Origin: an uncultured Erysipelotrichaceae bacterium
GTDB lineage: Bacteria > Bacillota_I > Bacilli_A > Erysipelotrichales > Erysipelotrichaceae
Reading direction: 5' to 3'
Length of the DNA: 42,502 bases
Assembly: GCA_902786245.1 (NCBI GenBank)
Contig: CADABS010000015.1
Span: forward strand, 1-42,502
Below the pieces are notes generated by a model that worked only from the letters and a program-made list of their open reading frames with translations, did not search any database and had not been told where the DNA came from. Of this stretch, positions 32,991-42,412 are shown piece by piece; position 1 is the stretch's first letter, and every line of letters begins with the position of its first letter. A program made the position numbers and the translations under genes.

Positions 32991-33089
32991 GGACTTTTTC
33001 TCTTATTTTCACAATAAAAAAAGTAGGACTTCCAACCATGAAACCTGACCGCAAATCCCCTTTGAATATCCCGATGCGTTATTTTTTCA

Positions 33090-33103
33090 CTAAAGCGCTT
33101 ACA
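33090..33103. promoter_or_regulatory. cre-like site upstream of the S10 promoter
   Basis: On the minus strand TGTAAGCGCTTTAG fits the CcpA cre consensus at 12 of 14 positions, with a perfect AAGCGCTT core. It lies about 100 bp upstream of the -35 and about 50 bp after the PAP2-like gene. The rest of 32991-33151 holds AT-rich sequence and no gene. Confidence 0.35.
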
Positions 33104-33151
33104 TTCCGTTTATATATACCTTATTTATATTAGAGAAACGCACTTTCCGCA

Positions 33152-33841
33152 TCAGTTCCCTTCGTGTTTCCTGCCCGGATCCAGCTTCGCCATGAATTTC
33201 CAGCATCCCCAGGCAATCAGCAGCCCTCCGAACACATCGATAATATAGTGCTGTTTGGTGAATACCGTGGACATACAGATACATATGACCATAGCCAGGG
33301 AATACCGCTGGTATCCCTTCGATATCTCCGGCTGATCTTTTACCCCCAGCCAGCAGTACAGAGAAATCAGGCAGTGATACGAAGGAAACAGATTGAATGC
33401 CAGATCACCGCCGTCCGCACCGTAAATAACACCCAGTATCCGGGTGAACAGACCCGGCTGTGCAACCGCCGCCATCAAACCTTCCTTCGTTCTGTTCATA
33501 TAAGTCGGCATAAAGACAAAAAACAGGAATCCGATAAAATACGCCAGCGTCAGACCATATAAGTAATTGATGAAATTCCGTTTCTTCGTCAGCGATACCG
33601 CGATCGGTCCACAGATCCAGAATATATATGAGTATAGATAGAACACTGCAAACACCGGAATGATCGGAATCAGATCATCGATGAACGGTATCTTGCATTC
33701 AAATGCCCAGGCCGTCGTACCGAGAACTCTGCTCAGCAGTTCTCCCAGGCGGTACATACCGTACTGCAGACCGAAATAAAAGAATCCGGACACCCACCCC
33801 CACCAGGGTATGGACTTTATTTTCTGTATTAATTTATTCAT
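33152..33841 (-). CDS. PAP2-like (inositolphosphotransferase/PAP2_3 type) membrane enzyme
   Basis: About 229 residues with five or six membrane helices. The PAP2 motifs are LFPSYHCLISLY (PSxH) and STVFTKQHYIIDVFGG (HxxxD), which supply the two active-site histidines; the first, basic motif is weak (KKRNF). This pattern fits the PAP2_3/Aur1-like subset acting on lipid-linked phosphates. I start at 33841 (MNKLIQK): it lies about 25 bases after the predicted transcription start and a GAGGA is 15 bases upstream, rather distant. A longer frame would place a 41-residue, non-membrane Cys-rich leader in front. Confidence 0.8.
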   Translation of the reverse strand: MNKLIQKIKSIPWWGWVSGFFYFGLQYGMYRLGELLSRVLGTTAWAFECKIPFIDDLIPIIPVFAVFYLYSYIFWICGPIAVSLTKKRNFINYLYGLTLAYFIGFLFFVFMPTYMNRTKEGLMAAVAQPGLFTRILGVIYGADGGDLAFNLFPSYHCLISLYCWLGVKDQPEISKGYQRYSLAMVICICMSTVFTKQHYIIDVFGGLLIAWGCWKFMAKLDPGRKHEGN

Positions 33842-33866
33842 GCAACATCTGTATATCCTCAGCTGA

Positions 33867-33895
33867 ACCATAACACAGATGATTGCTTTTGCCAA
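33867..33895 (-). promoter_or_regulatory. Promoter of the PAP2-like gene
   Basis: TTGGCA (33890-33895), a 17-bp spacer and TATGGT (33867-33872) on the minus strand. Confidence 0.55.
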
Positions 33896-33916
33896 CTGAT
33901 CGCATACTGCGATCAG
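33896..33916. repeat. Inverted repeat abutting the PAP2 promoter
   Basis: CTGATCGCA and TGCGATCAG are perfect arms around a three-base centre, directly upstream of the -35. No T tract follows, so an operator is more likely than a terminator. Confidence 0.6.
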
Positions 33917-33944
33917 CACATTTTCAGTCTTCTTTCCCTGCCCG

Positions 33945-33975
33945 CAAAAACAGGCAGTACGCAATGACTGCCTGT
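33945..33975 (-). terminator. Intrinsic terminator after the 33985-34113 remnant
   Basis: ACAGGCAGT/ACTGCCTGT, nine perfect pairs with an eight-base loop, followed by five T on the minus strand. It is placed exactly as the terminator of the open reading remnant that stops at 33985. Confidence 0.82.
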
Positions 33976-33984
33976 CCTTCTGTT

Positions 33985-34113
33985 TCAGTGAATTGTTCCG
34001 GTTACCTCTTCAAGGCTTTCCCATTCACCTGTGAAATTGTTTTTGATGCGCCCGTTTGCTTCATCCACTTCTCTGAGACCGCCCTGCAGGCGGCAACATT
34101 TCGGGGGACGATT
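33985..34113 (-). pseudogene. Remnant 3' end of an unrecognised gene
   Basis: On the minus strand 42 codons are open between a TAA and the TGA at 33985-33987. The peptide ends GEWESLEEVTGTIH and looks protein-like in composition (GRIKNNFTGEWES), and a terminator follows ten bases later. No start codon or ribosome binding site is present, and the sequence upstream belongs to the divergent LytTR regulator. I infer the tail of a gene whose 5' part was removed. The family is not recognised. The rest of 34114-34153 holds only the leader of the plus-strand regulator. Confidence 0.45.
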
Positions 34114-34153
34114 TTATATTATTTTCCGCAGACAAGAGAGTAATGATTAATAC

Positions 34154-35179
34154 ATGAAAATTGCAATAGTAGATGATGACATCCAAATGAAAGACATGCT
34201 TCTGAACACAATCCATCAATGGAGAATCAATGCTTCCTTTGATTATTTCAGCGATCCCGAAGAATTTCTGCAGCGTGCCTGCAGCTATGATGGTGTCATT
34301 CTTGATATAAAAATGGAACCGTCCGGATTTGAAATTGCCCGGCAGCTGAAGACCTCTGCCCCGCAGATCCTTATCATTTTTCTGACGGCTTATACAGATC
34401 TTGTATATGAAGCCTTCGGTCCGAATGTGGTCGGCTTTATCGATAAAAACCAGCTGAAAACAACGCTGCTGTCGTCGTGGAATAAATTTCTTATTGAATA
34501 TGCAGGCAGAAAAACGATTATTCTGGAAGAATATGATTCGACCGGAAAAATCGCAGTCAATGTTTCATCCATTATCTGCTGTACTTCTTCCGGCAGAAAA
34601 ATCACGGTGACATGCACCGGCGGCAGAGAATACAGAATCCGGAAACAGACAATCCGCACCATGCTCAGTCTGTTGGACAGCGACCTGTTCGTTATGGTCA
34701 GCCGCTCCGTGATCGTGAATGTGCAGTATATCTGCCGCCTGGACCGGGAAACGGTCGGAATGAAACAGATCAACAGATCATTCGATATTTCCAGAACGAG
34801 ATATTCTGAAGTTGAAGACGCATTATGCAGTATTATTCAATATAGCGACTGCCGTACAGATTCCGTCTCTGATCTGAATATTCAGACTTCCATGATGCAT
34901 ATCGCACAGCGACTGAACACTCTTCAGTCCGATTCCGTGTTCATATGCATCTTTTTTCTTTGTCCGGAAATCGCTGTTATACGTCGTATTCGCAACAGTT
35001 ATGAAAACCGCATCACTGCCTTCCGCTTTCAGATGTATATACGGATGATCTGTTCTCACTGTATTGTTTTCCAGTGCATTATCGAGAAGATTTCCGAGAA
35101 TAACCGCAATATCATATTCCATCTCCTGCGTCATTCCCGGCGGCAGGTGTACGGAATACAGTGTTTTAATGCCCGATGA
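34154..35179 (+). CDS. LytTR-family response regulator with antisense-encoded C-terminal extension
   Basis: Residues 1-120 are a receiver domain: acidic cluster VDDDI at 6-10, phosphoacceptor D51 in VILDIKM, conserved Thr in FLTAYT and Lys in FIDKNQ. Residues about 125-228 are a LytTR DNA-binding domain (SGRKITVTCTGGREYRIRKQ, VSRSVIVNVQYICRL). A normal AgrA-like protein ends there. This frame continues for about 110 residues that are the exact antisense of the kinase gene's 3' end, so they are probably a readthrough tail after loss of the original stop. The ribosome binding site is weak (AGAGAG, 13 bases upstream). It converges on the kinase gene. Confidence 0.75.
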   Translation: MKIAIVDDDIQMKDMLLNTIHQWRINASFDYFSDPEEFLQRACSYDGVILDIKMEPSGFEIARQLKTSAPQILIIFLTAYTDLVYEAFGPNVVGFIDKNQLKTTLLSSWNKFLIEYAGRKTIILEEYDSTGKIAVNVSSIICCTSSGRKITVTCTGGREYRIRKQTIRTMLSLLDSDLFVMVSRSVIVNVQYICRLDRETVGMKQINRSFDISRTRYSEVEDALCSIIQYSDCRTDSVSDLNIQTSMMHIAQRLNTLQSDSVFICIFFLCPEIAVIRRIRNSYENRITAFRFQMYIRMICSHCIVFQCIIEKISENNRNIIFHLLRHSRRQVYGIQCFNAR

Positions 35180-36103
35180 ATGTGCCTTGGAAAGCTTGAC
35201 GGAAAGAATCGCATCAATTGCACTGTATCCGCTGAACACCATCACAGGCAGTTCATCAATGGCCTCAAGATTTTTCTCAATCAGATTTCTGCATTCATCG
35301 GCTTTGCCGTGATCCAGATATCCCTTCAGCACAATATACTGATTCCGCATATCATGGCGCAGTTCCCGCAATGCGTTTTCTTTGTCTTTCTGACTGTTTT
35401 CAAACTCCCTGACGGATTTCAGTTCCAGCGCAAGTTCCGAATGGATCTGTTCTTTCATATGATCCAGGGAAGACTGACTGAAAACAAAATAGGAGATGAC
35501 CGATACCAGCCACAGCAGAATATTCACCGCAATAAATATCCTGTATCTCGGGTCTGCGTTATAGATGATGGTTTCATTGAAAATGATCGCGTATGCAAGA
35601 ATGACAAATATCACTATAAAAGCGCCTGAATACCTGGACTGCAGCGATTTATATCTGGAAGAATATCTGTTTGTGATCATCAATATGAGAAATACCAGCA
35701 GTCTGCTGGACCAGAAAATATAACTGTATGCATCTGAATTCATGAATTCAGACAATGATGACATACCGGAGAAAACATAGTGCATATCCATGCAGAAATC
35801 ACTGCATATCGAAAGCGTATTGTTCCAGAACAGTGCGTAAATAATCAGATTTGCCGCAGATACTTTATCTCTTGACCGCTGAAACAGATACATCATGACG
35901 GCCATGACGGCCATCGGTAAAAGTATCAGAAAAGACTCAAAAAAAACAAACACATTCATTGCCGTGATCATTCCCGCAAACACCGCCGTAAAGCAGATGA
36001 CATAGCTGAAACGGTTTGCCCCTTTGAATTCCATATATGATGCTGTACAGAGCGCGTAAAGAAAACTTTCAATCAGATTCTGCAGAATGCTCAATAGTTC
36101 CAC
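34823..36103 (-). CDS. AgrC-like (HPK10) sensor histidine kinase
   Basis: 426 residues, GTG start at 36103 with AAAGGAG eight bases upstream. The first 210 residues contain about six membrane helices and no large external domain, the layout of peptide-pheromone receptors. The dimerisation helix carries RHDMRNQY with phosphoacceptor H250. The ATPase has the N-box LGNLLDNALENN and the G-box HGIGLKSV of the GHKL fold. It lies five bases after the LytTR regulator gene at 36109-36795, its likely partner. Its last 357 bases are overlapped in antisense by the other regulator. No agrB or agrD is visible, so the signal is unknown. Confidence 0.9.
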   Translation of the reverse strand: MELLSILQNLIESFLYALCTASYMEFKGANRFSYVICFTAVFAGMITAMNVFVFFESFLILLPMAVMAVMMYLFQRSRDKVSAANLIIYALFWNNTLSICSDFCMDMHYVFSGMSSLSEFMNSDAYSYIFWSSRLLVFLILMITNRYSSRYKSLQSRYSGAFIVIFVILAYAIIFNETIIYNADPRYRIFIAVNILLWLVSVISYFVFSQSSLDHMKEQIHSELALELKSVREFENSQKDKENALRELRHDMRNQYIVLKGYLDHGKADECRNLIEKNLEAIDELPVMVFSGYSAIDAILSVKLSKAHSSGIKTLYSVHLPPGMTQEMEYDIAVILGNLLDNALENNTVRTDHPYIHLKAEGSDAVFITVANTTYNSDFRTKKKDAYEHGIGLKSVQSLCDMHHGSLNIQIRDGICTAVAILNNTA

Positions 36104-36108
36104 TGCTG

Positions 36109-36795
36109 TTACTCCTTTGTATAATAATAGTACTTTTCCAAAAATCCCTTACTGTATTTCCCCGTTATGACCAGCGGCTCCGCTGATCCTGCAAGTGCAA
36201 ACATTCCGTCCGGCATGCGCCTGACATAGAGCAGATTAACCAGTTCCCACGCATTGTTCCTGGCAAACCGTTCTCCCAGCACATGACCGTATCTGCGCAG
36301 AAATCCGGACAATGACTGTTTCACCTGCAGTTTTTCCTTCCCGTAATGGATGGTCAGTGTATTCCTGCTTACGGTAATATGCACAATCCTGCTGATATAC
36401 AGTCTTCTCTCCTGGCGGCTGATCCGGATATGTATTGCCGCATTCATTTCCATGCAGTACTGTCTGAACACTTTCACCAGATCCCTCTGCATATATTTCT
36501 TATCGATAAAGCTGTACGGCCTGAACATGAACGAATCCGTGATCAGTTCACTGTGCGAAGATAAAAAAACGATCCTGCAGGAGGCAGGAAGACGCTGACT
36601 GTAAACAAACCCGTTTATATCGGGCATTGCAATATCCAGAAAAATGAGTTCCGATTTCATGACGCATTCCGGAGACGGCGCATGTGAAAATGACCTGATA
36701 TCGATCTTCAGATGCAGTGTTTCTTCAACACTGCGGATACAGTATTCAAAAAGGCGCAGAAAATCCGCGTCGTCATCAATCACACTGATCCGCAT
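36109..36795 (-). CDS. LytTR-family response regulator
   Basis: 228 residues. Receiver domain with DDDAD at 7-11, phosphoacceptor D54 in IFLDIAMPD, and SFIDKKYM with the conserved Lys. Residues about 125-225 form a LytTR domain (RRLYISRIVHITVSRNTLTI through LVITGKYSKGFLEKYY). The ATG shares a base with the stop of the XRE gene (TAATG), and the kinase follows by five bases, so XRE, regulator and kinase are one operon. It probably binds the direct repeats at 38384-38413. Confidence 0.88.
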   Translation of the reverse strand: MRISVIDDDADFLRLFEYCIRSVEETLHLKIDIRSFSHAPSPECVMKSELIFLDIAMPDINGFVYSQRLPASCRIVFLSSHSELITDSFMFRPYSFIDKKYMQRDLVKVFRQYCMEMNAAIHIRISRQERRLYISRIVHITVSRNTLTIHYGKEKLQVKQSLSGFLRRYGHVLGERFARNNAWELVNLLYVRRMPDGMFALAGSAEPLVITGKYSKGFLEKYYYYTKE

Positions 36796-37133
36796 TATTT
36801 TTTATTAAACACAGCATCAATGATCTGCTGTACTCTGACATATACATCTGTATCCGATGTACTGATCTCGACAATCAGTTTCTGTTCCTCACCCGGTTCA
36901 CTGTTATACGGAAACAGCGCATTGATATCCGCGCGCAGGAGTCTTGAAAGATTGTATGCGTGGATCAGTGTCGGAACATCCTGCCGGTTTTCCCATTTGC
37001 TTACCAGTGCCTTGGACACATGCAGCGCATCTGCGATTTCCTGCTGAGAAAGACCCGCCATACTGCGGATCTCTTCCAATCTGTTTACCGGTGCAAGTTC
37101 ACCGGATTTTCTGTCCCAATACAGGAGCTTCAT
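36795..37133 (-). CDS. XRE-family transcriptional regulator, copy 1
   Basis: 112 residues from the ATG at 37133 (a GTG one codon upstream is possible). The helix-turn-helix is at about 18-75: RLEEIRSMAGLSQQEIADAL then HVSKALVSKWENRQ, the standard Cro/CI layout. The C-terminal 40 residues are acidic and strand-forming. It is about three-quarters identical to copy 2 (38465-38818), and the DNA upstream is nearly the same. It heads the operon with the LytTR regulator and kinase and probably represses it. Confidence 0.9.
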   Translation of the reverse strand: MKLLYWDRKSGELAPVNRLEEIRSMAGLSQQEIADALHVSKALVSKWENRQDVPTLIHAYNLSRLLRADINALFPYNSEPGEEQKLIVEISTSDTDVYVRVQQIIDAVFNKK

Positions 37134-37183
37134 CACTTCTGATGATATATGCTTGCATGTACATTTGTATAGTTTACATATGT
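37131..37183. repeat. Upstream operator/promoter block of XRE copy 1
   Basis: The 53 bases up to and including the ATG match the block before XRE copy 2 (38816-38868) at all but about five positions, with identical spacing between the palindrome ACATATGT and the start codon. Conservation outside coding sequence suggests a shared operator for the XRE proteins. Confidence 0.75.
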
Positions 37184-37210
37184 TAAGTATGAATGTTTCT
37201 GTATTTGCTT

Positions 37211-37248
37211 AAAAAAAGACTTTGGAATTTCAGTATTCCAAAATCTTT
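37211..37248 (-). terminator. Terminator of the membrane/secreted protein operon
   Basis: TTTGGAAT/ATTCCAAA with a six-base loop and extra pairs below a mismatch; seven T follow on the minus strand. About 40 bases after the stop at 37286. Confidence 0.8.
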
Positions 37249-37285
37249 TAGCACTGAGTAATATGATTATTTCTGTTATCCGGTA

Positions 37286-37963
37286 TTACGCGGTGAAGAA
37301 ATTTGCATATGCAGATGATCCTTTTGGAACAAACAACCGGAGTCTGCATGTTGAAGAGAACCCTGAATTTGTCTTAACGAATTGATATGTTGCATACGCC
37401 GGATTATAACTATCCGCATTTGCGCGATTAATTGTCAGTGATTCCGAAGAAACCGTTATCCCTATAGCATAGAACGTATTATCGTATACATTTGTTATCT
37501 TCCCGGAATCATGCGTTCCTTGAAAATCCGCATAAAAATATGCTGATAGATTCACCGTTGAATAGGAAACCTTTGCACCGGTCCAGGCGTACCAATATGT
37601 TGATGACTGATAGTTGCCGTCACTGATCGACGCAGGCACTGTAGTTCTGAGCAATTGACCTCCGGTGATCTCGATTCGTTTAGCAGAACCGTCAGGATAA
37701 TTGTACTGCTCTGTATAGTTTCCATAATTATCCCATCCAACTGAAGAAGGTTTCATAATATTGAAGAGAGGATTATCACAGTCAAGTGTTTTCCCCGCAT
37801 TGATTTTTTCCAGCAACTGAGATTGTTTTTCAATAGGAACGTTTAAATCATTCATCGTTCCAAAAATATCAAACCCATTTGAACTATCTTTGAACTCATA
37901 ATCCGCATGTACCTTGACATTACTGATCATACAGATGCCAATAAGCATCATAATTACATGCAA
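37286..37963 (-). CDS. Secreted protein of unknown function, with possible frameshift in its signal peptide
   Basis: About 200 mature residues after a hydrophobic segment (VIMMLIGICMISNVKVHA, likely cleaved after HA). The mature part is rich in S, Y, T and N with no Cys pair or known motif that I recognise. The only in-frame starts are TTG at 37963 or later ATGs, without ribosome binding sites. An ATG at 37985, four bases past the stop of the upstream gene, would give a classic MK-initiated signal peptide if the five-A run at 37978-37982 had four A. This suggests a frameshift mutation, slippage or sequencing error. Second gene of a LytTR-type-promoter operon. Confidence 0.7.
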   Translation of the reverse strand: MHVIMMLIGICMISNVKVHADYEFKDSSNGFDIFGTMNDLNVPIEKQSQLLEKINAGKTLDCDNPLFNIMKPSSVGWDNYGNYTEQYNYPDGSAKRIEITGGQLLRTTVPASISDGNYQSSTYWYAWTGAKVSYSTVNLSAYFYADFQGTHDSGKITNVYDNTFYAIGITVSSESLTINRANADSYNPAYATYQFVKTNSGFSSTCRLRLFVPKGSSAYANFFTA

Positions 37964-37987
37964 ATCTGCATATATTATTTTTCATTA

Positions 37988-38284
37988 TTACGCCCGTTCT
38001 ATTTTTCTCAATTTTAATAGCAGTACACATCCGATCCAGCAGATACTGTAACATAAGAATCCAAGAATGATCTCAATCAACAATGCAGCAGTTTCAAGAT
38101 TCCGTAATGACAGATATAGTAGTATTGTATTCAAAATTGAATATATTATTGATGCATATAACAGAACTTTGCTGTATTGCGGCTGAAATCTTATGATCAT
38201 AGATTCAAAAGCCATCACTGCACAAAAGACAATAAACTGCTTTATCAAAATATCCGCTATAAAAACAAACAACTCTTCAACCAT
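37988..38284 (-). CDS. Small membrane protein of unknown function
   Basis: 98 residues with three predicted membrane helices (about 5-27, 38-60, 66-90) and a short basic tail LRKIERA. GAGGT lies seven bases before the ATG. It is the first gene behind the LytTR-type promoter and is followed directly by the secreted protein gene. Size and position suit an immunity, export or processing partner, but there is no AgrB-like Cys/His motif and I cannot name the family. Confidence 0.7.
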   Translation of the reverse strand: MVEELFVFIADILIKQFIVFCAVMAFESMIIRFQPQYSKVLLYASIIYSILNTILLYLSLRNLETAALLIEIILGFLCYSICWIGCVLLLKLRKIERA

Positions 38285-38344
38285 GATTCACCTCAAGTTA
38301 TTATCTGAAGCTCTTCGCAGGCCTGCTTTTAACCGGTCATAATT

Positions 38345-38373
38345 GTATTATCACTTTTAGTAGATATATGCAA
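38345..38373 (-). promoter_or_regulatory. Promoter of the membrane/secreted protein operon
   Basis: TTGCAT (38368-38373), a 17-bp spacer and TAATAC (38345-38350) on the minus strand, with the direct repeat at 38384-38413 immediately upstream. Confidence 0.65.
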
Positions 38374-38383
38374 CATTTCGTGC

Positions 38384-38413
38384 ATGAACTGTCGGAAATT
38401 TGTCATGAGTTGC
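38384..38413 (-). promoter_or_regulatory. Direct repeat of LytTR-binding type
   Basis: On the minus strand ACAGTTCAT (38384-38392) fits the LytTR site consensus at every position, and GCAACTCAT (38405-38413) is a 6-of-9 copy exactly 21 bases, two helical turns, upstream. A pair of this spacing just above a -35 is how AgrA- and PlnC-type regulators activate promoters. Confidence 0.6.
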
Positions 38414-38464
38414 ACGTATAACCGCAAAACAGCATTCATCCGCTGATAAAAAGAAGCGATTCAA

Positions 38465-38818
38465 TTATTTACGGGTAATCGTGAGATGTTCTCCGAACAC
38501 AGCATCAATGATCTGCTGTACTCTGACATATGCTTCTGTATTGGCTGTACTGATCTCGATGATCAGTTTTTCTTCCTCCGGTTCACTGTTATACGGAAAA
38601 ATCTCATTGATATCCGCACCCAGAAGTCTTGAAAGATTGTATGCGTTGATCAGGGTCGGAACATCCTTGCGCTTTTCCCAATTTCCGACCGTTTTCTCGG
38701 GTACATGCAGCTCATCTGCGATTTGCCGCTGAGAAAGACCCGCCATACTGCGGATCTCTTCCAGTCTGTTTTCCGGCGCAGGTTTGCCGGATTTTCTGTT
38801 CCAATGCAGGATTTTCAT
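38465..38818 (-). CDS. XRE-family transcriptional regulator, copy 2
   Basis: 117 residues from the ATG at 38818. The helix-turn-helix at about 18-75 (RLEEIRSMAGLSQRQIADEL then HVPEKTVGNWEKRK) differs from copy 1 mainly in the recognition helix (PEKTVGNW versus SKALVSKW), so the two may read different sites or compete. The C-terminal region is conserved (RVQQIIDAVF) and then extended by EHLTITRK. It sits upstream of, and in the same direction as, the membrane/secreted protein operon. Confidence 0.88.
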   Translation of the reverse strand: MKILHWNRKSGKPAPENRLEEIRSMAGLSQRQIADELHVPEKTVGNWEKRKDVPTLINAYNLSRLLGADINEIFPYNSEPEEEKLIIEISTANTEAYVRVQQIIDAVFGEHLTITRK

Positions 38819-38868
38819 CACTTCTGATGATATATGTCCGCATATACATTTGTATAGTTGACATATGT
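38816..38868. repeat. Upstream operator/promoter block of XRE copy 2
   Basis: Near-identical to 37131-37183, including the palindrome ACATATGT at 38861-38868 and the invariant ATCATCAGAAGTGATG at the start codon. Confidence 0.75.
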
Positions 38869-38910
38869 CTACTATCCGTTGAGATGACAGGCAGATACCA
38901 TCCGTTCAGA

Positions 38911-38938: not shown

Positions 38939-39211
38939 TTACTTATAGACGATATGCAGAGCAGGGTTGTCTCTGACTGCTTCCGAGATGACTCTGAATA
39001 CCTTATAGGCATATTCATCATTCAGGATTTCCTGCATGATCTCTCTGTTGACAACAAAATCGACCGGAAGTGCCTCTTCACTGAGGCAGTCATTCAGCGC
39101 ATCGAGATTTCTGCCGAAGTAGTCTTCAAATTCGAATAGCTCCATGAAATAATCGCTCATCTTTTCCCGGTCTGTCATCCGTTCCGGTTCAAGACGTATT
39201 TTTCTTGCCAT
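38939..39211 (-). CDS. Barstar-family RNase inhibitor
   Basis: 90 residues. The barstar signature YFGRNLDALNDCL is at 31-43; D37 and D41 correspond to barstar D35 and D39, which plug the barnase active site, while barstar W38 is Asn here. I start at 39211 (MARKIRL), which has AAGGAG nine bases upstream and lies one base after the RNase stop; the longer frame is the RNase gene read out of frame. It should protect the producer by tight binding of the neighbouring RNase, and being cytoplasmic it would guard against unexported enzyme. Confidence 0.88.
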   Translation of the reverse strand: MARKIRLEPERMTDREKMSDYFMELFEFEDYFGRNLDALNDCLSEEALPVDFVVNREIMQEILNDEYAYKVFRVISEAVRDNPALHIVYK

Positions 39212-39212
39212 A

Positions 39213-39806
39213 TCAGGAATCTCCTTCGTAGAGCTGTACAAATGATTCATAGTGATCATTGGTGTAGTAGACATCTCCTGCCTCTGTATAGATGATGCGT
39301 TTGGCACCTCTGCTCTTTGCGCCCAATGTACCGATATCGCATTCATAATAATCTTCATCTATATCCGGCAGATGCCCTTCATTGTTTCCGAACCGGTCGC
39401 CGCCGATACACATACCCGGTATGACTTTATACAGCGGTCCGCTGCTCCATCCTTTCTTTCTGGCTTCTCTTTTTGTCATATAGTTGGAAGGCAGATGATG
39501 ATAGGTATAGATATACAGCGCAACTTCATCCTTGGTATCGTATTGCCCGTCTTCGTCGATCGCTGCTTCCGGCGCAGGTTCCGGGTCTGTTTCCGGTACT
39601 GTAACGGGTTCCGGTTCAGGTGCAGGCTCCGGATCTGTTTCCGGCACCGTGACAGGTTCAGGTTCCGGTTCAGGATCGGTATTGACCGCCGGATCATTGA
39701 TCACGGGTTCCGGATCTGCCGGCGGTGCGGAAGGTCTGAGAACCAGATAGCCGAGTATTAGCAGTATGCCGAGCAGCGGCAGTAAGAATTTCTTTATACG
39801 TTCCAT
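39213..39806 (-). CDS. Barnase-family ribonuclease with membrane anchor and Pro/Glu-rich stalk
   Basis: 197 residues. A hydrophobic segment (about 7-23) acts as signal or anchor. Residues 28-82 are a stalk of DPEPEPEPVTVPET-like repeats. Residues about 85-195 are a barnase-type RNase: YHHLPSNYMTKREARKKGW, GGDRFGNNEGHLP, ECDIGT, and NDHYESF. K112, E155, R166, R170 and H185 align with barnase K27, E73, R83, R87 and H102, so catalysis looks intact. N142 stands where barnase has R59, which binds guanine and barstar. No ribosome binding site; the start overlaps the HAD gene by 13 bases, implying coupling. Confidence 0.87.
   Translation of the reverse strand: MERIKKFLLPLLGILLILGYLVLRPSAPPADPEPVINDPAVNTDPEPEPEPVTVPETDPEPAPEPEPVTVPETDPEPAPEAAIDEDGQYDTKDEVALYIYTYHHLPSNYMTKREARKKGWSSGPLYKVIPGMCIGGDRFGNNEGHLPDIDEDYYECDIGTLGAKSRGAKRIIYTEAGDVYYTNDHYESFVQLYEGDS
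39585..39680. repeat. Tandem repeat encoding the RNase stalk
   Basis: Two adjacent diverged units of about 50 bases encode EPVTVPETDPEPAPEP twice. Length variation by slippage is possible. Confidence 0.7.
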
Positions 39807-40573: not shown

Positions 40574-42412
40574 TCATGCGCAAGCTTTTCTTTTCAGCAG
40601 GATCCATCCTGCCGCAAGAATCATCGCAAAGCCGGTAACATAATAGATGCCTGTGCCGATTCCGCCGGTATGAGGAAGCTCCACACCCGGGTTATTGGGA
40701 ACGGTGAGTGTATATACCTTATTTTCTGCATCATATGCCACCGCATCCGAAGTATATACCATGGCCCTGACCTGTTTTCCGGTTTCCTTATCTGTTTCCA
40801 CAGTGATCACGACATGTGATGACAGACCGATATAGCCTGCCGGTGCACTGTCTTCACTCAGATAATACGTACCGTCCATGAGACTGCCGAGATCGATCAC
40901 TCCGTTTTCATCGGTACGGATTTCTTTCAGACTGTTCACGGTCTGTGTATGCTCTTCATCCGCATACAGCGAGAAGACCGCATCCTTCAGCGATTCCCCT
41001 GTGATCATATCCGTCTTATGCAGCTTTACACGGACGTTTTTACTGTTGGGAACTGTCAGGATATATGTCAGTTCTCCGCTTTCCGCATCGGTTTCTTTTT
41101 TCAGCCAGCCTGTGTAATTCTGATTCAGAATTGTCACCGTGCCGTTCTTTCCGATGGTGAAATGCAGATCCTCCGCAATCGGTGTATAGCTGTCCGGTGC
41201 CTGTGTTTCCTGCAGATAATACGTACCTGCCGCAAGATCCATCGTGATCTGCGGAATCACGCCGTTTTCATCTGTTACCAGGTCTTCATAGCCTTCCAGA
41301 GGGTTATAGTCCTTTCTCGGATGTCCCTCATTGTCCAGGACTTCCCGATACAGCGCAAAATGCACATCCTGCAGTTTACTGTGTGTATTGCCGTCTTCTT
41401 TCAGTGCCTTCAGCGATACGGTCCGGTTGCGGATCGTGATCACTGCCGTCATGGAAGAATCCTCTTCGATCCAGTACAGATTTTTATCCACGCCGCTGAT
41501 TTCAACCGAATGATCCTCATTGACCGTAATTGTCATCGGGGCAGGCATTGCCGTATATCCCTTCGGTGTTTCCGTCTCTGTCAGGGTATAAGTGCCCGGA
41601 TTCAGATAGGCAATCGTAATCAGACCGTCTTCCTTTGATGTATAGGATTCTGCCGCAACATCCTTTCCCTGTCCGTCTTTCAGCGTAAATACCGCACCGG
41701 CAAGCTTTTCTTCATAATTCCATCTGCTCTTGTACAGCTTGATGCCCGGTCTGGAATTGGTAACGGTATCGGTACGGATGTTTTCGTTCTTTCCGGTTGA
41801 ATCTCCGACTTCATAGTGAACTGTATACGTAAAGCCGTCCTGATGCGTTCCGCTGGCAGGTGTACCGCCGATGACCAGCGTTTCGCCGTCATCGACCGGC
41901 GCAATACTGTCATAGGATGTTACTTTTCCTTCACTGTCCGTTACAGGATTTTCCAGTACGACTTCTCTGACAGTGTATTCCGGGAATACATGCGGTGTTC
42001 CCTGGGCATCCTTCAGATCCTGGAAGAAGTAATACAGTTCCGTTTCATCTGAATTCATTCTGCGGACGGTATTGTTTACAGGTTCATTATTGAGATATAC
42101 CGCGAAATAAATCGGATCGTGTTCCTGCATGAAGTCTGCATCTGTCCAGATCTTCTTCACCGTCAGACCCCAGCCCTTCTGGTTTCTGACTTCCACTTCC
42201 GGCGATTCATTGACCTGCATTGTTCCGCTGACCGGTGTACTCTGTTCCATCTGATGCCCTTCATCCACCCGGGCATAGCCGGTACTGTCCTGACGGGTAT
42301 ATCCGCGGGGGATATCCCTGTCTCTTTCTTCCGCCTTCCATTGCGTTCCGACGATCAGATCTCTGACCTCTACGGTATAATCCGCCGGAATATTGGATGC
42401 GGAGCCGTACAT
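40574..42412 (-). CDS. LPXTG-anchored surface protein with Cna_B/SpaA-type domains, 5' end missing
   Basis: 612 residues from the first ATG. Cna_B-type beta-sandwich domains occur at about 80-215 (GWGLTVKKIWTD), 220-320 (AGAVFTLKDGQG, YTLTETETPKGY), 330-425 (LQDVHFALYRE, YYLQETQAPDSY) and 450-560 (LKDAVFSLYADE, YYLSEDSAPAGY). The Lys and Glu positions suit internal isopeptide bonds. The C-terminus is a sorting signal: LPHTG at 579-583, a membrane helix and KRKACA. There is no signal peptide and no ribosome binding site at 42412; the frame stays open for 19 codons further to a TAA at 42470-42472. The true N-terminus is missing or frameshifted. Likely a pilin or adhesin. Confidence 0.82.
   Translation of the reverse strand: MYGSASNIPADYTVEVRDLIVGTQWKAEERDRDIPRGYTRQDSTGYARVDEGHQMEQSTPVSGTMQVNESPEVEVRNQKGWGLTVKKIWTDADFMQEHDPIYFAVYLNNEPVNNTVRRMNSDETELYYFFQDLKDAQGTPHVFPEYTVREVVLENPVTDSEGKVTSYDSIAPVDDGETLVIGGTPASGTHQDGFTYTVHYEVGDSTGKNENIRTDTVTNSRPGIKLYKSRWNYEEKLAGAVFTLKDGQGKDVAAESYTSKEDGLITIAYLNPGTYTLTETETPKGYTAMPAPMTITVNEDHSVEISGVDKNLYWIEEDSSMTAVITIRNRTVSLKALKEDGNTHSKLQDVHFALYREVLDNEGHPRKDYNPLEGYEDLVTDENGVIPQITMDLAAGTYYLQETQAPDSYTPIAEDLHFTIGKNGTVTILNQNYTGWLKKETDAESGELTYILTVPNSKNVRVKLHKTDMITGESLKDAVFSLYADEEHTQTVNSLKEIRTDENGVIDLGSLMDGTYYLSEDSAPAGYIGLSSHVVITVETDKETGKQVRAMVYTSDAVAYDAENKVYTLTVPNNPGVELPHTGGIGTGIYYVTGFAMILAAGWILLKRKACA

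Follow-up and report, generated by a model that had tools for sequence, protein, structure and literature searches.

A putative agr-type receiver cassette without signal genes in an uncultured Erysipelotrichaceae bacterium

What does a putative peptide-sensing kinase of the agr quorum-sensing family, known from Staphylococcus, do at a locus that carries no genes for a signal peptide? The question is raised by a block of genes on a 42,502-nucleotide stretch of DNA from an uncultured Erysipelotrichaceae bacterium (hereafter the window), which is contig 15 of an assembly of 2.75 Mb in 102 contigs, 96.5% complete. The block is flanked by the S10 ribosomal operon and a barstar/ribonuclease pair. 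It holds a PAP2-family gene, a response regulator gene on the plus strand (LytTR1) and, on the minus strand, the gene sets XRE2-MEM-SEC and XRE1-RR2-HK, which combine a kinase, a second response regulator, two XRE regulators, a small membrane protein and a candidate secreted protein. The original prediction for this block was an undescribed sensing circuit without agr genes. We propose, with a probability of roughly two in three, that this block is an accessory receiver cassette for agr-type quorum sensing, without signal genes of its own and working by the mechanism set out below. The cassette probably turns on the production of a secreted protein that is perhaps antibacterial.

An AgrC-like kinase with two LytTR regulators

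All of the genes named in the original prediction were recovered where it had placed them, using the list of open reading frames and Pfam. The kinase HK (34823-36103, minus strand) was assigned by Pfam (HATPase_c_5, expectation (E) value 4.7e-18), alignment and phylogeny. It has a multi-pass membrane N-terminus and a GHKL ATPase domain with intact H and N boxes, and the only matches of its profile in PDB were to AgrC of S. aureus; the locus thus possesses the AgrC-type membrane histidine kinase of agr systems. LytTR1 (34154-35179, plus strand) is an AgrA-like protein made of a receiver and a LytTR domain (Pfam Response_reg, 5.7e-10; LytTR, 5.3e-10; alignment) and represents the AgrA-type response regulator of such systems. 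It converges on the kinase, as had been predicted. Alignment with LytTR-type relatives showed RR2 (36109-36795, minus strand; Response_reg, 2.9e-7) to be another response regulator, whose LytTR domain is divergent. One kinase is therefore accompanied by two LytTR regulators, as in pln-type systems, with the LytTR domain of RR2 falling below the Pfam cut-off in the window.

RR2 and HK are preceded by XRE1 (36795-37136, minus strand; Pfam and alignment), a helix-turn-helix regulator and the first gene of the set. The three genes lie head to tail, with a 1-nt overlap followed by a 5-nt gap, and this tight packing bears out the operon that had been proposed for them. XRE2 (38465-38821, minus strand) stands before the membrane/secreted gene pair, again as predicted. 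A terminator-like hairpin with a T run, located by an inverted-repeat search and from the sequence (37211-37248, minus strand), follows SEC and parts MEM-SEC from XRE1, which suggests one unit of MEM-SEC and another of XRE1-RR2-HK. Both of the predicted XRE regulators are present, but they are not independent: the proteins share 74% of their residues, and the genes with their promoters are 85-89% identical in DNA, forming tandem duplicates on both sides of MEM-SEC.

Related cassettes and the missing agrB and agrD

Kinases homologous to HK, 22-35% identical to it, were found in the same genus in the same recurrent cassette; the close ones, at 30-35%, occur in a few genomes. LytTR1 and HK converge, RR2 stands before HK and XRE before RR2 in loci L047, L048, L051 and apparently L053; LytTR1 faces a full HK-RR2-XRE set in L047, L048 and L051, and a partial one in L045, L046, L049, L050, L052, L053 and L054. 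The 11 cassette kinases form a single clade (support 100/100), which is represented in 6 of 70 genomes of the genus (E <= 1e-60, the next best match being 1e-37). Scanning a collection of genome contigs with the single kinase sequence retrieved no relative, and a kinase profile retrieved one cassette relative (L076, with the same gene coordinates as L049), the rest being ordinary distant kinases.

Seven of these relatives (L046, L047, L048, L049, L050, L051 and L054) carry agrB next to LytTR1, at the end not facing HK. The Pfam AgrB model matched all four that were tested (L047, L048, L049 and L051) at 1e-23 to 1e-28, while agrB of L046 is apparently split over two frames and LytTR1 of the same locus is also broken. 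In the same seven, agrB is followed by an AgrD of 40-55 residues with the shared motif NSPSxKGxYQExMPxxVKxLKK, of which YQExMPxxVKxLKK forms the C-terminal part. Both genes are absent from the window, from L045, its paralogue on contig 5 of the same genome, and from L052. Searching the window by tblastn with five cassette AgrBs gave a best E value of 0.17, and the AgrD pattern occurred in none of its six frames; on the LytTR1 side where relatives carry agrB, the window has the PAP2 gene.

The predicted absence of agrB and agrD is therefore true at the window, yet seven homologous cassettes have both genes at the expected place, which indicates that the circuit is agr-derived; a sensing circuit without agr genes describes this locus only locally. 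Since agrB and agrD were looked for and not found, the locus was not classed as a complete agr system. It is a variant, in which an agr-derived receiver is combined with two LytTR regulators and XRE. In common with agrBDCA of S. aureus it has an AgrC-family kinase, a LytTR regulator and a candidate LytTR repeat before the output, and its relatives have AgrB and AgrD. It differs in the absence of agrBD, in a convergent layout with two LytTR regulators and XRE instead of a single AgrA, and in its apparent output, which consists of neighbouring secreted-protein operons rather than an RNAIII-type RNA. No description of such an arrangement was found in the open-access papers searched, a limited library.

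In the kinase tree, HK of the window clusters with the kinases of L045, L047 and L050 (98/96), of which L047 and L050 bear agrBD, whereas L052 is placed elsewhere. This distribution suggests an ancestral cassette with agrB and agrD beside LytTR1, from which the window copy would have lost them. If agrBD is ancestral, at least two losses would be needed, although we infer the direction of change, and the window copy may have lost the two genes or never have had them.

The cassette sites have different neighbours, as expected of accessory DNA. In the window, the block appears to have been inserted between the S10 ribosomal operon and the barstar/ribonuclease pair. A relative lacks the block at this junction (L222): the order S10-barstar-ribonuclease-HAD is found without PAP2 or cassette in genome G064, and in another genome (G007) other genes fill the place. 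Gene content at this junction (L221:3400-7250; window 33000-38900) varies among genomes, and the differing junction genes make it look like an insertion hot spot.

A candidate secreted output and its promoter

SEC (37286-37963, minus strand; open-reading-frame list and homologues) is a small protein with a signal-peptide-like start and an uncertain start codon, and is the candidate output of the cassette. MEM (37988-38284, minus strand) is a protein of 98 residues with three hydrophobic helices and is a candidate immunity or partner protein; it matched no family and is not conserved across the homologous cassettes. The G+C content of MEM-SEC is 33-40%, against 43-50% in most flanking windows. 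Homologues of SEC (24-36% identity) adjoin other, distantly related kinase/LytTR pairs in L056, L057, L060 and L061, with ABC or lipoprotein genes close by. Such settings favour the view of SEC as an output of circuits of this kind. The kinases beside them fall outside the cassette clade and match HK at E values of 9e-4 to 5e-3 or not at all. A lack of co-conservation, which by the original prediction would have refuted it, was checked for: the regulators are co-conserved, MEM is not, and SEC occurs with other kinases.

Other secreted-protein operons stand divergent to XRE or HK in the related cassettes. They encode a 123-residue secreted protein with two ABC proteins in L048, a secreted protein with a partner in L051, two secreted-protein/lipoprotein pairs in L053, and a 130-residue secreted protein with membrane proteins and an ABC ATPase in L045. 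These sets of secreted protein with lipoprotein, membrane or ABC partners look like bacteriocin and immunity genes. In Lactococcin-972-type bacteriocin loci, too, a secreted protein is accompanied by an ABC/permease or membrane partner, as in L045 and L048, yet SEC matched no such family in Pfam or NCBIfam, nor did the tested secreted proteins of relatives in Pfam. Curated bacteriocin models likewise gave no match to SEC, apart from DUF5626 at a sub-cut-off E value of 0.004; assignment to DUF5626 was rejected, as only one of seven members reached even this value. No match to SEC was found in viral contigs, or to the region from XRE1 to XRE2 among plasmids, and an AlphaFold model from the single SEC sequence was unusable (predicted local distance difference test score 33). 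MEM was also considered as a truncated AgrC membrane domain and this was rejected, the match being present only with composition correction off and gone with it on.

The sites of LytTR regulators consist of 9-bp repeats separated by 12 bp and lie immediately before the -35 box, as described for PlnC/PlnD (PMC2714321) and for LytTR Regulatory Systems (PMC6193735). A repeat search identified a candidate site of this kind, CAACTCATG-N12-CAGTTCATG (38383-38412, minus strand). The MEM-SEC promoter has a -35-like hexamer some 9 bp downstream of it. In six loci pooled, 21 bp was the top direct-repeat spacing (50 matches vs 40 for the next; k = 9). The repeat is individually significant in L045, L047, L048 and L051, and not in L053 or the window. 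Its sequence differs from cassette to cassette (ACCGTCGCT in L048, TCCCAAAAT in L051, GGCGCGAAT in L047, AAACGATTC/AAACAGTTC in L045, and CAACTCATG/CAGTTCATG in the window), pointing to distinct specificities. As L045 has LytTR1 and the repeat without RR2 or XRE, LytTR1 is the likelier activator there. The predicted control of the MEM-SEC operon by the kinase and LytTR regulators thus draws support from co-conserved regulators beside secreted-protein operons with an upstream repeat of 21-bp period, though not from MEM. A search of the genome for further sites yielded no other convincing one; one further near-match to the repeat falls within a glgC-like gene and was attributed to chance. Between XRE and the output operon, L051 (10498-11002) and L053 (1988-2131) have very short frames sharing an RYKNGD-coding stretch, which may be leader peptides or what is left of another gene.

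The pln regulon of Lactobacillus plantarum (plnABCD; PMC2714321) has one peptide-sensing kinase, two LytTR regulators, 9-bp repeats with a 12-bp spacer and a secreted bacteriocin output; the window locus resembles it in its kinase and two regulators, and in a candidate repeat and candidate secreted output. In contrast to pln, the two regulators of the window locus are encoded on opposite strands and do not closely duplicate each other, XRE is added, and the relatives use AgrD and AgrB. A double-glycine pheromone with a dedicated exporter was not seen in the open-reading-frame list of the block, which was not searched with profiles for such genes. In LytTR Regulatory Systems (HdrRM and BrsRM; PMC6193735), a LytTR regulator is paired with a membrane inhibitor, the role that MEM would have if the locus were of this type. 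The locus does have a small membrane protein with several helices, and a candidate LytTR-type repeat with 12-bp spacing close to the -35 box. However, MEM lies apart from the LytTR genes and is unconserved, and both LytTR proteins have receivers and a cognate kinase, which makes this assignment highly improbable.

SEC itself, or a fragment of it, could in principle be the pheromone sensed by the kinase, as the original prediction had suggested, given that the locus has no other signal gene. Our data lend this no support and we consider it scarcely credible, because in relatives the kinase is found together with AgrD and with unrelated secreted proteins, and because the SEC homologues accompany kinases from outside the clade.

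We therefore favour a receiver in which the AgrC-like membrane kinase would sense an extracellular cyclic peptide and phosphorylate one or both LytTR regulators, as expected from their families. A phosphorylated LytTR dimer would then bind the direct repeat upstream of the MEM-SEC promoter, in keeping with its geometry, and activate transcription. By analogy with the relatives' operons, SEC would be exported to act extracellularly, with competing bacteria as its most likely target, and MEM would protect the producer. XRE1 and XRE2 might bind their own promoters and set the basal level. A palindrome in the XRE2 promoter (38854-38875; p 0.07 in shuffles) is a candidate XRE operator, and the strongest inverted repeat before XRE1 is part of the terminator hairpin; this evidence for operators is suggestive only, and the role of XRE, based on position and a weak palindrome, is a guess. 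If it has lost agrBD, the window cassette would answer the peptide of another locus or species, or run at a basal level.

Intactness of the locus, other AgrB genes and neighbouring features

Several observations weigh against the favoured reading. The conserved part of LytTR1 stops at about 34850, and the frame continues antisense to the kinase without a stop at the usual place, so that LytTR1 and HK overlap by 357 nt in the window vs 6-29 nt in eight relatives. The LytTR domain of RR2 reaches an E value of only 0.065, under the Pfam cut-off; it is clear in relatives. SEC has no in-frame ATG with a basic signal-peptide n-region, and the ATG that overlaps the stop codon of MEM lies in another frame, which leaves its start and secretion uncertain; the gene may be damaged at its start. 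It belongs to no Pfam or NCBIfam family and has no match in PDB. As for the LytTR-type repeat predicted in the MEM-SEC promoter, its spacing is right, but its halves are identical at 7/9 positions (p 0.14), which alone is not beyond chance. Finally, three other AgrB genes of the same genome could supply a signal, though they are only 20-32% identical to the cassette AgrBs.

The lost LytTR1 stop and the odd SEC start, together with the absence of agrBD and the XRE duplication, would be signs of decay if selection had ceased once agrBD was lost, and contig C84 of this genome has a related agr-type gene that is plainly broken. We regard a decaying remnant as unlikely, since the kinase, both regulators and both XRE genes have full open frames and catalytic residues, and since kinase and LytTR genes are intact in L045 and L052 despite their lack of agrBD.

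The three AgrB genes, along with several AgrD-like precursors, would also fit a complete system, whose kinase hears a peptide made in trans from genes elsewhere in the genome or lost in binning; given the completeness of the assembly and its 102 contigs, a contig may be missing. This we judge to be distinctly unlikely. The AgrB genes on contigs C40 and C39 have their own complete response regulator and kinase set and the third, on C57, lies at a contig end with a response regulator; the identity of these AgrBs to the cassette type is low, and their AgrDs lack the MPxxVK tail.

If an agr-type receiver without its own signal genes is the right reading, gut Erysipelotrichaceae would harbour a receiver family that combines a single AgrC-like kinase with two LytTR regulators, often with XRE added, in several copies per genome with copy-specific operators and exchangeable secreted cargo; some copies would be without signal genes, making cheating or listening in quorum sensing directly testable. 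A further, tentative idea, with the odds against it, is that signal-less cassettes might be eavesdropping receivers, which retain the kinase and regulators together with a secreted weapon so as to respond to the peptides of neighbours with complete cassettes. They would then be mobile, insulated competition-sensing circuits with their own operator and an exchangeable output.

Elsewhere in the genome, three intact genes have an AgrD-like leader (SPSRxGxYQxDxRKLK) fused in frame to a signal peptide and differing mature secreted proteins (L063:531-1352 on contig 40, L202:1535-1918 on contig 57 and L201:9765-10535 on contig 39). A fourth fusion (L203:327-1268, contig 84) is interrupted by two stops in the leader. 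Those on contigs 39, 40 and 57 lie near sets of agrB and a response regulator, with or without a kinase. When 395 genomes of the class were scanned with a profile of the leader, two gave a match, both of them from this genus, and no such fusion was described in the papers searched. If AgrB processes the leader fusions, one gene would yield both a signal and a secreted protein. In another agr-type locus on contig 39, a secreted protein with the metalloprotease-like motif HEMGHAFGLAH (L201:5276-5941) is encoded downstream of a stand-alone AgrD.

An Rfam scan of the window gave no match. The PAP2-family membrane protein (33152-33842, with an open frame to 33964; minus strand; Pfam) lies within the inserted block. 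Beyond the block, window positions 38939-39806 encode the barstar-like inhibitor and the ribonuclease (Pfam 'ribonuclease', 1.4e-16), with a Pro/Glu-rich linker, likely a secreted ribonuclease and its inhibitor; the ribonuclease is present in 52 of the 70 genomes of the genus. Further on (40574-42412), the translated sequence is that of a large surface protein with Cna-B-type-like repeats and a C-terminal LPHTG sorting motif.

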